DNA of 64,000 bases, taken from the NCBI GenBank assembly GCA_944390935.1, contig CALXRU010000007.1, positions 1 to 64,000 of the forward strand, in the 5' to 3' direction. This document shows positions 26,068 to 29,940 of the stretch, one piece after another. Origin of the DNA: Acidaminococcaceae bacterium. GTDB lineage: Bacteria; Bacillota; Negativicutes; Acidaminococcales; Acidaminococcaceae. Within the stretch, counting starts at the first letter, position 1. Each line of letters opens with the position of its first letter. The translations under genes and the position numbers were made by a program. A model generated the notes under the pieces. The model was given only the letters and a program-made list of their open reading frames with translations. It ran no database searches and was not told the DNA's origin.

Positions 26068-26090
26068 GTTGTATGTTCTGAAATGTATAA

Positions 26091-26133
26091 CAGCCTTTTA
26101 CCTGCGCTTGTAGGTAAAAGGCTGTTTGTCTTT
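26091..26133. terminator. Bidirectional hairpin between convergent fba and rfbB
   Basis: A 13-bp perfect stem (CAGCCTTTTACCT, 26091-26103, with AGGTAAAAGGCTG, 26112-26124) followed on the plus strand by TTTGTCTTT. It sits just after the rfbB stop on the other strand, so it probably ends transcripts from both sides, with the better T-tract on plus. Confidence 0.7.
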
Positions 26134-27151
26134 ATCTTCCGCTATACATTTTTTCATAATACTTTTGGTATTCGCCGCTGATGATTTCCTGCCACCAGTC
26201 TTTATTAGCTAAATACCACTCAATCGTTTTGGCAATGCCGTCCTCAAACTTCGTCTGCGGCAACCAGCCAAGCTCGTTGTGTATCTTCGTCGGGTCGATG
26301 GCATAACGCCTGTCATGCCCCGGGCGGTCTTTCACAAAAGTTATCAAGTCTTTGCTTTTGCCCAGCGCTTTTAAAATAATCTTCACAACATCTAAATTGC
26401 TCTTTTCGTTGTGCCCGCCTACGTTATAAACTTCGCCCTCACGCCCATGGCGGATAATTAAATCAATAGCACTGCAATGGTCTTCCACATACAGCCAGTC
26501 ACGCACGTTGGCTCCGTCACCGTATACCGGCAAGGCTTTATCATGCAGGGCATTGATAATCATTAGCGGAATCAACTTCTCCGGGAAATGATACGGGCCA
26601 TAATTGTTACTGCAACGGGATATAGTCACAGGCAAACCATAAGTGCGGTGATATGCCAAAACCAATAAATCCGCACTTGCTTTAGAAGCAGAATACGGGC
26701 TGGAAGTATGCAGCGGCGTTGTTTCCGTAAAGAACAAATCCGGCCTGTCCAGCGGCAAATCACCGTAAACCTCGTCCGTACTTACCTGATGGTAACGCTT
26801 AATGCCATACTTGCGGCAGGCATCCATCAGTACGCCCGTACCAATAACATTTGTCTTTAAAAACAGCTCCGGCTCTAAAATGCTGCGGTCAACATGGCTC
26901 TCCGCCGCAAAGTTTACAACAACATCAGGCTTTTCCGCTTCAAACAGGCTGTAAACAAAATTACGGTCAGCAATATCGCCTTTAACAAACTTAAAGTTAG
27001 GCTGCTGCATTGCAGGTTTCAAGCTACTTAAATTGCCCGCATACGTCAGCTTATCCAAGCAAATAAATTCATCCTCCGGATGCTGCTTCAGTTCATAATA
27101 TATAAAATTACTGCCAATAAACCCGGCCCCGCCGGTGATGATGAGTTTCAT
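26132..27151 (-). CDS. rfbB: dTDP-glucose 4,6-dehydratase
   Basis: 339 aa extended short-chain dehydrogenase. It converts dTDP-glucose to dTDP-4-keto-6-deoxyglucose, the second step to dTDP-rhamnose. The motifs [10 protein letters not shown] (NAD binding), [31 protein letters not shown] (YxxxK catalytic pair) and [17 protein letters not shown] are present. The start is placed at the ATG at 27151 with GGAG upstream. It closes the polysaccharide locus, 9 kb away from its pathway partners rfbACD. Its GC content is closer to the flanking core genome than to the AT-rich genes before it. Confidence 0.95.
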
Positions 27152-27222
27152 AATTTTTCTCCTTGCGTACAAAGTTATATGTTAATATAATACATTAAAA
27201 TTCCGAATACAATATATCAATT

Positions 27223-28410
27223 TTAATTTTTTATTTTTCGTACCAACCAATACACACCCGGAATATTTTTTATAACCTTTTTTATTCTAACCTTCAACGC
27301 AGGTTTTGTATATTTTTCTATCAATTCACATATATTATATGGTTTATTTTTAAAATCCCGAAAAAATTCTGTACGATGTTTTGACGGTATAGCTGGATAA
27401 ACCATAGCTAGATTATATTGAACTGCATTACAAAAAGGTACTTTCTTTTTCAGTGCATTAAGCTGTTGTACCAGTTTTCTACCCTTTTCTGAATGCGCAA
27501 AAAGAAGCGATGTGCCTTTCTCATCATACATTTCAGGCATCACGTTTTTGACACCCCAAAAATCAGCCAAGGTAATATCTACTGGTCGATTCTTACGACA
27601 AAATTGACAATGGTAACATGAAGGCCGTAAATACAAATTATGCAGAAATCCTCTTAGATAAAGATCTTCATTCAGATCTGCAGCCAGGTATTTGTTATCA
27701 TTCTTTAATAAGAATGATAACAAATACCTTTCCCAGGAAAGGTTTTTGTTACGAAACGAAATCCTTCGGATTTCGTTTAAATCTCCTACTCTTTCTTTTA
27801 AATATTCTCGCCATACAGCAGGTGAAGGAACACCATGACAAATAAAATCCACAACAGTTAAATTATTATATTCTTTTTTAAGAAAATTTTTCAAGCCTAT
27901 TGTTTGACATGGTGTTCCAACAAAAAGTACTTCCCGCCCTCTTTCTAATTCCGCTTTTGCTTTTTTATAACTATCACCTATTCTGCTTTGAAGATATTTG
28001 GATGCTCGTAATTTATCAAGGTCTTCAACTTTTTCAACAAATGTATGATAAACTTCCCATTTCTCATCAAAAGCCGCACCAAAAACAATACCATTTTCCC
28101 GAAGCACGTCTTCTGCCACAAGAGACATAACCCCCCCGGACGAACTCTGTTCTCGGCTAGTAAGATCATTACTGATAACCGCCCAGCTCTCCGGCTCTCG
28201 TTCCTCCGAAGTCTGAACTTGATGTAAACCAGGACAGGTAACTTCACAAGCGCCACATTGAATACATTTTTCTGTATCAACCTGCGGATAACGAAACCCT
28301 TCCATATCTTCTTGCATTATAATTGCCGAAACTGGACAAACAGAACAACAAGCGTAACATCCAACACAATTTGCATGATCTTCGGCAATCATTTTTTCTA
28401 TTGCAATCAT
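27223..28410 (-). CDS. Coenzyme F420 hydrogenase/dehydrogenase beta-subunit-like Fe-S protein
   Basis: 395 aa. The N-terminus carries two 4Fe-4S ferredoxin motifs (CVGCYACCSVCP and CIQCGACEVTCP, residues about 15-60). FrhB-type segments follow (SSGGVMSLVAEDVLRE; LFVGTPCQTIGLKNFL; VDFICHGVPSPAVW) and then RPSCYHCQFC. Such proteins recur in glycan clusters beside polysaccharide pyruvyl transferases, where their redox role is not established. F420 use itself is not implied. The ATG at 28410 has GGTAGGAT upstream. Its coding sequence contains an unusual run of perfect inverted repeats at 27662-27778. Confidence 0.88.
   Translation of the reverse strand: MIAIEKMIAEDHANCVGCYACCSVCPVSAIIMQEDMEGFRYPQVDTEKCIQCGACEVTCPGLHQVQTSEEREPESWAVISNDLTSREQSSSGGVMSLVAEDVLRENGIVFGAAFDEKWEVYHTFVEKVEDLDKLRASKYLQSRIGDSYKKAKAELERGREVLFVGTPCQTIGLKNFLKKEYNNLTVVDFICHGVPSPAVWREYLKERVGDLNEIRRISFRNKNLSWERYLLSFLLKNDNKYLAADLNEDLYLRGFLHNLYLRPSCYHCQFCRKNRPVDITLADFWGVKNVMPEMYDEKGTSLLFAHSEKGRKLVQQLNALKKKVPFCNAVQYNLAMVYPAIPSKHRTEFFRDFKNKPYNICELIEKYTKPALKVRIKKVIKNIPGVYWLVRKIKN
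27662..27778. repeat. Cluster of four perfect inverted repeats inside a coding sequence
   Basis: In 117 bases I read: AGATCT twice (27662-27667 and 27674-27679); a 20-bp perfect stem with a 4-base loop (27686-27705 with 27710-27729); CCTTTCC/GGAAAGG (27727-27733, 27736-27742); and an 11-bp stem AAACGAAATCC/GGATTTCGTTT (27754-27764, 27768-27778). All lie within the F420-dehydrogenase-beta-like gene without breaking its frame. Confidence 0.9.
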
Positions 28411-28425
28411 CTAATATCCTACCTT

Positions 28426-29940
28426 TCATGCTATCCGCAGAATTTTTCTGCCAACCCGTTTACACAAGCCCTTTTCATACTCATTCATACAAAACTTATA
28501 CATAATAAAAATATAAAAAAACGTATCTACAACACACAAAATCAAAAAATTACGCCAATTCAAAGATAATTGTAAAAAATATTCTATACCAAATCCAACA
28601 AAAAGTAGCAAAACAGATCCCTTCATTAATGGCAAAATGTTTTTCCAAAAAAACTTAATATCTAAATGAATTTTTTTGGCATAGTAGCAGTTCATAATAA
28701 AACCAGTCGATATGATCAATGCACCTGCTGTCGCAACAGCACATCCCAAACCATTCCAATATCTAGCCAGCGGAAAACTAGCTAAAAGAGCTATAAAGGC
28801 GCAAATTGAGTACACGGTCATCCTATAACGATTCAAATTCATAGCTTGCAGAATAGCAATCCCTACATTTTGCAACAGTGGTATCATTAGAGCTATCATC
28901 AGCAATACAACAATAGGATATGCTTCTATATAATTAGCTCCAGCCCACAGGTTGATAAACTGTCGACCCACTAAAAAAAACATAACAAAGATATAACCTA
29001 CTACCAAATATTGCAGTCGTCCAATCCTTGTCATTAACTGACTTAATTCTGAAACTTGAACCTTATTAGCCACCATCATAGTAACTTTAGGCAACATAAC
29101 CCCACTGATAGCTGTGGAAAAATTCATGTACATCATCATAAACTGCATGGCAATAGCATAAACTGCCACTTGTTTCGTCCCCGAAACAATTCCTAAAACA
29201 AATTGTCCTGATCCCCAATATATTTTATCCATAATAGCATTCAAAAAAATAAAGAAAGAATATACAGCAATTTCTTTTAAAAATACTGTTTCAAAATGTC
29301 CCCATAAAAAACGTACATGAAGATAATAAAAACAGTAAAAAGCATTAGCAAGCAAACAAGTAAAGTTCAATAAAGTTGATACAACTACCATCATTACTGA
29401 ACCATAACCCCAGTATAAAAAAGGCAACACTAAAAGAGGATTAATTATTACTCGAAGAATATTCGACACTCGAAGAAAAATAAATTTCTCATAGGCATTA
29501 AGTATTGAAGCAAAGATGCTCAGAGGAAAAGAAAAAGCAAAATTGCAAATCAGCAGTATCATCATAATTCTTGCTCGATGCATTTCTTCAAGATTAAGCG
29601 TTGCACCAAACAGATTATCAATATTGATGTATAAAACTGCTCCTATAGCTATACAAAATAGGCCTATAAGGGAATATACGCTAAAAAAAAGACCATTAAG
29701 TTCAGCCTCTCGCTGTGGAGTACCATCTACACGATTCTTTGCTGTATAACGAACGATAGTATTACCAAGCCCCATATCCAGCACACTGAGATATCCAACC
29801 ACTGAACCAATCAATGAATATAACCCGTATTCTGACTGTCCAAGCAGACGAAGCATAATAGGCGTATATACCAGACCAATAACCATATTTGCAATTATAT
29901 TTATATAAGAAAGGATTGCCCCCCAACGTCTTTGGTTCAT
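28426..29940 (-). CDS. wzx: Wzx-type polysaccharide flippase
   Basis: 504 aa, strongly hydrophobic with about 12-14 membrane segments. The N-terminus (LSYINIIANMVIGLVYTPIMLRLLGQSEYGLYSL) is characteristic of MOP-superfamily O-antigen/exopolysaccharide flippases, which move undecaprenyl-linked repeat units across the inner membrane. It lies next to a pyruvyltransferase-like gene and a Wzy-like polymerase. The base composition is AT-rich like its neighbours. The class is secure; the transported unit is unknown. Confidence 0.9.
   Translation of the reverse strand: MNQRRWGAILSYINIIANMVIGLVYTPIMLRLLGQSEYGLYSLIGSVVGYLSVLDMGLGNTIVRYTAKNRVDGTPQREAELNGLFFSVYSLIGLFCIAIGAVLYINIDNLFGATLNLEEMHRARIMMILLICNFAFSFPLSIFASILNAYEKFIFLRVSNILRVIINPLLVLPFLYWGYGSVMMVVVSTLLNFTCLLANAFYCFYYLHVRFLWGHFETVFLKEIAVYSFFIFLNAIMDKIYWGSGQFVLGIVSGTKQVAVYAIAMQFMMMYMNFSTAISGVMLPKVTMMVANKVQVSELSQLMTRIGRLQYLVVGYIFVMFFLVGRQFINLWAGANYIEAYPIVVLLMIALMIPLLQNVGIAILQAMNLNRYRMTVYSICAFIALLASFPLARYWNGLGCAVATAGALIISTGFIMNCYYAKKIHLDIKFFWKNILPLMKGSVLLLFVGFGIEYFLQLSLNWRNFLILCVVDTFFYIFIMYKFCMNEYEKGLCKRVGRKILRIA

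Follow-up and report, generated by a model that had tools for sequence, protein, structure and literature searches.

A coding quasipalindrome that distant homologues share at the same codons and that may be homogenised by template switching

A gene for a Coenzyme F420 hydrogenase/dehydrogenase beta-like protein, within a 64,000-nucleotide stretch of DNA from an Acidaminococcaceae bacterium (hereafter the window), carries a cluster of strong hairpins in its coding sequence. Distant homologues carry the longest of these at the same codons, the two arms having changed in concert and mostly nonsynonymously, and many other relatives lack it. Judging from sequence comparison, we give a probability of about 0.55 to the interpretation that this is a persistent coding quasipalindrome whose arms template switching during replication has made alike, at a segment of the protein that tolerates change. 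It looks like a new bacterial instance of a known process, unusual in lasting across distant lineages.

Results

The host gene and its hairpins

The host gene (27223–28410, minus strand) encodes a 395 aa protein of the FrhB/FdhB-C type in an intact open reading frame (ORF), with [4Fe-4S] ferredoxin motifs at the N-terminus followed by FrhB_FdhB_N/C domains. Its membership of the F420-dehydrogenase-beta-like family, proposed in an earlier note on this DNA, is borne out by a Pfam profile match to PF04432 (FrhB_FdhB_C; E 2.6e-21, 76.5 bits against a gathering cut-off of 23.3), and the PF04422 and Fer4 families are matched as well. The gene is of a kind found in polysaccharide clusters. Its upstream neighbour (28426–29940, minus strand) is, going by its sequence, a Wzx-type polysaccharide flippase, and its downstream neighbour (26132–27172, minus strand) is a putative rfbB-like dTDP-glucose dehydratase, a name taken from its translation and the earlier reader. 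Two distant paralogues in the same genome, 39–41% identical (L037, G000:C2:4829-5863; L038, G000:C5:70935-71966), do not have these hairpins.

There are three stems in this gene that are real. The first, hp3 (27686–27705/27710–27729, minus strand), is a perfect 20 bp stem with a 4-nt loop and codes for RYLLSFL-LKNDNKYL. The second, hp2 (27719–27733/27736–27750, minus strand), has 15 positions, 14 of them paired, around a 2-nt loop; its 8 bp core (27726–27733/27736–27743, ACCTTTCC/GGAAAGGT) is one of the four repeats counted in the earlier note, and the extension to 15 positions was not reported there. The third, hp1 (27754–27764/27768–27778, minus strand), is a perfect 11 bp stem with a 3-nt loop that codes for NEIRRISF and, taken alone, is borderline with respect to chance. 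Thus three of the four repeats originally described as stacked within 117 bases (those of 20, 11 and 8 bp) stand, and the fourth, the 6 bp AGATCT/AGATCT repeat hp4 (27662–27667/27674–27679, minus strand), is at chance level. The arm at 27719–27729 is common to hp2 and hp3, which are therefore mutually exclusive. All three stems pair codon positions 3 with 3 and 1 with 2, a phase that sets silent sites opposite silent sites. The reading frame continues through the hairpins, as had been stated, and alignment with homologues shows nothing inserted, hairpin-free members being equal in length across the segment; the hairpin DNA is present in a single copy in the genome. A beta-hairpin in this protein segment is not claimed, single-sequence structure prediction being too poor (pLDDT 37.6), and no solved structure matching the segment was found among the alignments listed.

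Two other repeats were seen in passing. A 19-nt inverted repeat (27827–27845/27900–27918), 89% complementary with its arms 54 nt apart, coincides with two conserved motifs, GTPCQ and CHGVP, and probably exists because the codons for these motifs are naturally complementary; repeats of this type may be common in the host-gene family. Intergenic hairpins at 26089–26126 and L073:5409-5448, far apart in the genome, share a near-identical stem (AACAGCCTTTTAC...GTAAAAGGCTGTT) with different loops, and the pair resembles a repeated terminator or REP-like element.

Comparison with chance and with the rest of the genome

That the 20 bp stem at 27686–27729 exceeds chance expectation, as first proposed, is confirmed by two kinds of randomisation. 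Third-order Markov versions of the window have longest stems of 9–12 bp, and permutation of synonymous codons within the gene, with the protein and codon counts kept, gives a longest stem of 7.6 bp on average and 12 bp at most (150 trials). The mRNA folding suggested earlier was carried out: the RNA spanning 27640–27800 (161 nt) folds with z = −8.8, and the fold of the hairpin region compared with synonymous-codon shuffles gives z = −5.5. Within the 464 kb of the genome sampled for stems, 427 kb of it in ORFs, hp3 is the sole perfect stem longer than 14 bp inside coding sequence, and the only perfect stems of at least 12 bp within ORFs are hp3 and one 14 bp stem near an ORF start; outside ORFs there are 25 such stems, many of them terminator-like.

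The same helix with other letters in distant homologues

No close orthologue was found in the genus, family, class or sampled phylum sets (the two phylum-level searches took nearly the same sample), in viral contigs or in the genome collection. The best homologue, L039, is 55% identical in protein sequence and comes from another family of the same class; the next are 44–49% identical. Plasmid and phage records reach 42% identity to the host gene or less. Homologues are also encoded in L064 (MT837642.1) and other MT83xxxx records, unverified 'Bacteriophage sp.' entries from human faeces that may be bacterial contigs or cargo, and one homologue of this type adjoins a pyruvyl-transferase-like gene.

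Watson-Crick pairs were counted via the protein alignment in 52 genes, with the geometry fixed from the window (20 positions, 4-nt loop). The distribution is bimodal: the window gene has 20 pairs of 20, L058 and L040 18 each, L039 17 and L057 15, and elsewhere L070 has 12 and the other 46 genes at most 10. The hp3 helix is thus at identical codons in four of the 51 homologues (protein identity 44–55%), of which L040 belongs to the window's class and L057 and L058 lie elsewhere in the phylum. Across the five hairpin genes 90% of hp3 cells pair, a figure that owes something to ascertainment, the five having been picked for carrying the hairpin; both-side changes are seen at 10 of 20 pairs, and the covariation is 0.54. 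When the partner is slid by 1–3 columns, 39–45% of cells pair, 0–1 pairs change on both sides and covariation falls to 0.06–0.18; the shuffled control gives 0.23. Ascertainment does not explain the gap, across all 52 unselected genes, between at least 15 pairs (five genes, with one at 12) and at most 10.

The other stems are more narrowly distributed, hp1 and hp2 being limited to the window gene, L039 and L040. There hp2 is a perfect 15 bp stem in L039 and a 12 bp stem in L040, with 95.6% of cells paired over the three sequences, and hp1 is kept in both homologues with three both-side pair changes; together the two stems show four both-side changes. In L040 a single pair position differs in each of the three arms that make up the hp2/hp3 chain, and the shared arm fits a single partner at once, TAT matching hp3 in the window gene and TTT matching hp2 in L039 and L040. 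Neither the AGATCT repeat hp4 (in homologues, by codon comparison) nor hp2 (in L057 and L058) is kept. The L057/L058 group also has a hairpin chain, with second covarying stems ATCTCTTTCAG/CTGGAAGAGAT and ATCGCTTTCAG/CTGGAAGCGAT (L057:2101-2196 and L058:1921-2016) bordering the left arm of the main hairpin.

The kind of change in the arms

The earlier note asked whether stems are kept by compensatory synonymous changes; among these distant homologues the paired changes are mostly nonsynonymous on both arms. When hairpin genes are compared two by two, a change that is nonsynonymous on each arm is in most cases the leading kind of both-side change, and the concerted changes between L039 and L058 comprise five that are nonsynonymous on both arms, one on a single arm and three on neither. 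Shuffling synonymous codons leaves 10–13.8 of the 20 pairs in hairpin genes compared with about 2–9 elsewhere, and complementarity is therefore written into the amino acids too. Codon choice adds further complementarity: shuffles as good as the real sequence numbered 1 of 2000 for the window gene, 0 of 2000 for L039, 5 of 2000 for L040, 21 of 2000 for L058 and 99 of 2000 for L057. The hp3 cells that are not Watson-Crick comprise 2 GU, 6 AC and 4 others, so that no preference for GU over AC is seen, although with so few cells this is a weak test. The loops of the five genes all differ (ATTA, CTAC, TTTT, GTTT and ATTC).

Codons for shared amino acids are more often identical inside the hairpin region than elsewhere between the window gene and L039 (19 of 22 against 63 of 186; permutation p < 0.0002) and between L039 and L040 (12 of 21 against 49 of 161; p = 0.018). 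This rise is absent for the window gene and L040 and is not clear for L057 and L058.

Distribution among relatives

The protein tree divides the hairpin genes between two groups, one of the window gene, L039 and L040 and the other of L057 and L058, to which L070 is sister. Three genes nested in the first group (L035, L042 and L043) lack hp3, and well-supported branches require at least three hairpin gains or losses. A flippase lies directly upstream in all four hairpin homologues, and also upstream of L035, L041, L059 and L060, none of which has hp3. Given these hairpin-free relatives, and the flippase context without a hairpin, the feature is dispensable for the gene family and is not tied to that operon context. 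Absence of the repeats from orthologues had been named in advance as a sign against functional significance; some homologues do lack them, but other, distant ones keep hairpins of different sequence.

Discussion

Three causes had been suggested for the hairpins: template switching, an RNA structure and an inversion hot spot. The last is rejected, nothing supporting it, and the RNA element remains a rival to template switching, which fits best because the stems are Watson-Crick rather than wobble-paired, the arms change in concert, and amino acids are changed on both. During replication the nascent strand would fold back, or the polymerase would switch template, so that one arm is copied from the other; such copying (quasipalindrome correction) would erase mismatches and make both arms change together. 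Substitutions appear to be tolerated in the peptide separating the RISFRNK motif from DLYL, on account of which corrected products would survive and the hairpin outlive its original sequence. The inverted repeats have the short spacers expected of a quasipalindrome (20 bp with a 4-nt loop; 11 bp with a 3-nt loop), and half of the hp3 pairs have changed on both sides regardless of coding effect. Several points count against template switching. The hairpin has stayed at the same codons over several families, a long persistence if it is neutral. So general a process leaves unexplained why this is the sole such gene in the sampled genome. The higher synonymous conservation in the hairpin region, between the window gene and L039 and between L039 and L040, would be predicted by selection on the nucleic acid as well.

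Template switching is known to create and homogenise short inverted repeats in genes (PMC8604942, PMC8794818), and there are several precedents with which the present case may be compared. Quasipalindrome template-switch mutation, described by the Ripley model and in the E. coli thyA and rpsL cases (cited in PMC8604942; PMC7202029), likewise involves a short inverted repeat with a short loop whose arms become perfectly complementary by changing together; it is known mainly from single laboratory or one-species events, whereas here the footprint spans genes 44–55% identical to that of the window. In S. cerevisiae, quasipalindrome template switching yields multi-residue protein changes, with coding inverted-repeat arms homogenised by nonsynonymous multi-base changes much as here (PMC8604942), but those events were traced between strains with ancestral states, and ours is a bacterial case seen through distant homologues, with no direct event seen. 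Template switching has also been proposed to make and maintain RNA hairpins through apparently compensatory changes, multi-base compensation reflecting copying of the opposite arm (PMC8794818); that system was studied in RNA genes, and this one is a protein gene. Finally, the mitochondria of Nematomorpha have perfect palindromes in intact genes, with both arms coding, which are gained and lost between species and kept without evident function, and whose authors suggested repeat conversion because mismatches are lacking and gain and loss are dynamic (PMC6649704). The bacterial gene described here bears similar signs. The mitochondrial palindromes are scattered through the genes and reach 284 bp, in contrast to a 20 bp hairpin at the same codons of one bacterial gene in several lineages.

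The main rival, which we regard as possible though unlikely, is a cis-acting structure under selection in the polysaccharide operon, at the level of mRNA or single-stranded DNA; it could act as an attenuator-like hp2/hp3 switch, a pause or processing site, or an element that slows translation. An RNA element keeps some credibility because distant homologues share the structure with covariation. The helix covaries strongly at the same codons, though template switching predicts likewise; hp2 and hp3 exclude one another, and all three of their arms have changed in concert in L040; and the fold is very stable. Selection on such a structure would also raise synonymous conservation, as seen between the window gene and L039. 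Template switching under constraint from the protein would raise it equally, since a silent change in one arm would be reverted or copied to the opposite arm, possibly with harm there, and local recombination between lineages is a third possible cause. Against a selected structure are the lack of a GU preference (a weak test with so few cells), the unconserved loop, the absence of a terminator-like U-tract after hp3, and the confinement of hp1 and hp2 to one group of genes. No Rfam match rises above chance, the only ones being sub-threshold microRNA matches with E of 0.5 and above. Nor is the helix retained through its clade, as the nested L035, L042 and L043 show, and it is missing from L041, L059 and L060 despite their having the same upstream gene as L035. 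We are doubtful of the specific proposal that a conserved, selected RNA switch lies within this polysaccharide-cluster ORF, with hp2 and hp3 competing for an arm and selection on the structure having overridden the protein sequence, so as to alter residues of both arms in concert.

Use of the hairpins by an antisense RNA from the plus strand, on which hp3 precedes hp2 in antiterminator/terminator order, seems quite improbable. On that strand hp2 is terminator-like (ACCTTTCCCAGGAAAGGT-TTTTGTT), and what are AC mismatches in the sense strand turn into GU pairs, but the ratio of 6 to 2 is not significant, promoter-like sites show no clear excess (6 against 4.0 in shuffles, sd 2.0) and L057 and L058 have not conserved hp2. 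An in-frame insertion of a mobile or selfish palindromic element is disfavoured and very improbable: the hairpin is palindromic, in frame and coding, like the Rickettsia palindromic elements within genes that are named in PMC6649704, but those elements, as described there, are selfish and lose repeat identity, and here identity is kept, no indel separates the gene from hairpin-free homologues, no second copy exists in the genome and homologous hairpins differ in sequence. Chance or an assembly artefact, which a draft assembly of 40 contigs and 88.8% completeness might suggest, is refuted in practice, as no codon permutation reached 20 bp and the hairpin recurs at the same codons in four other genomes.

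Covariation frequently counts as proof that an RNA is functional. In this case a hairpin in coding sequence covaries strongly among distant homologues, yet the protein is altered on both sides by most of the paired changes, and the hairpin is missing from some close relatives, a pattern that fits mutation no less than selection. Should template switching be the cause, a single DNA hairpin has long shaped a segment of this protein, and covariation by itself would be an unsafe sign of RNA function within genes; should it be selection, the hairpins would represent a new regulatory element inside polysaccharide operons.
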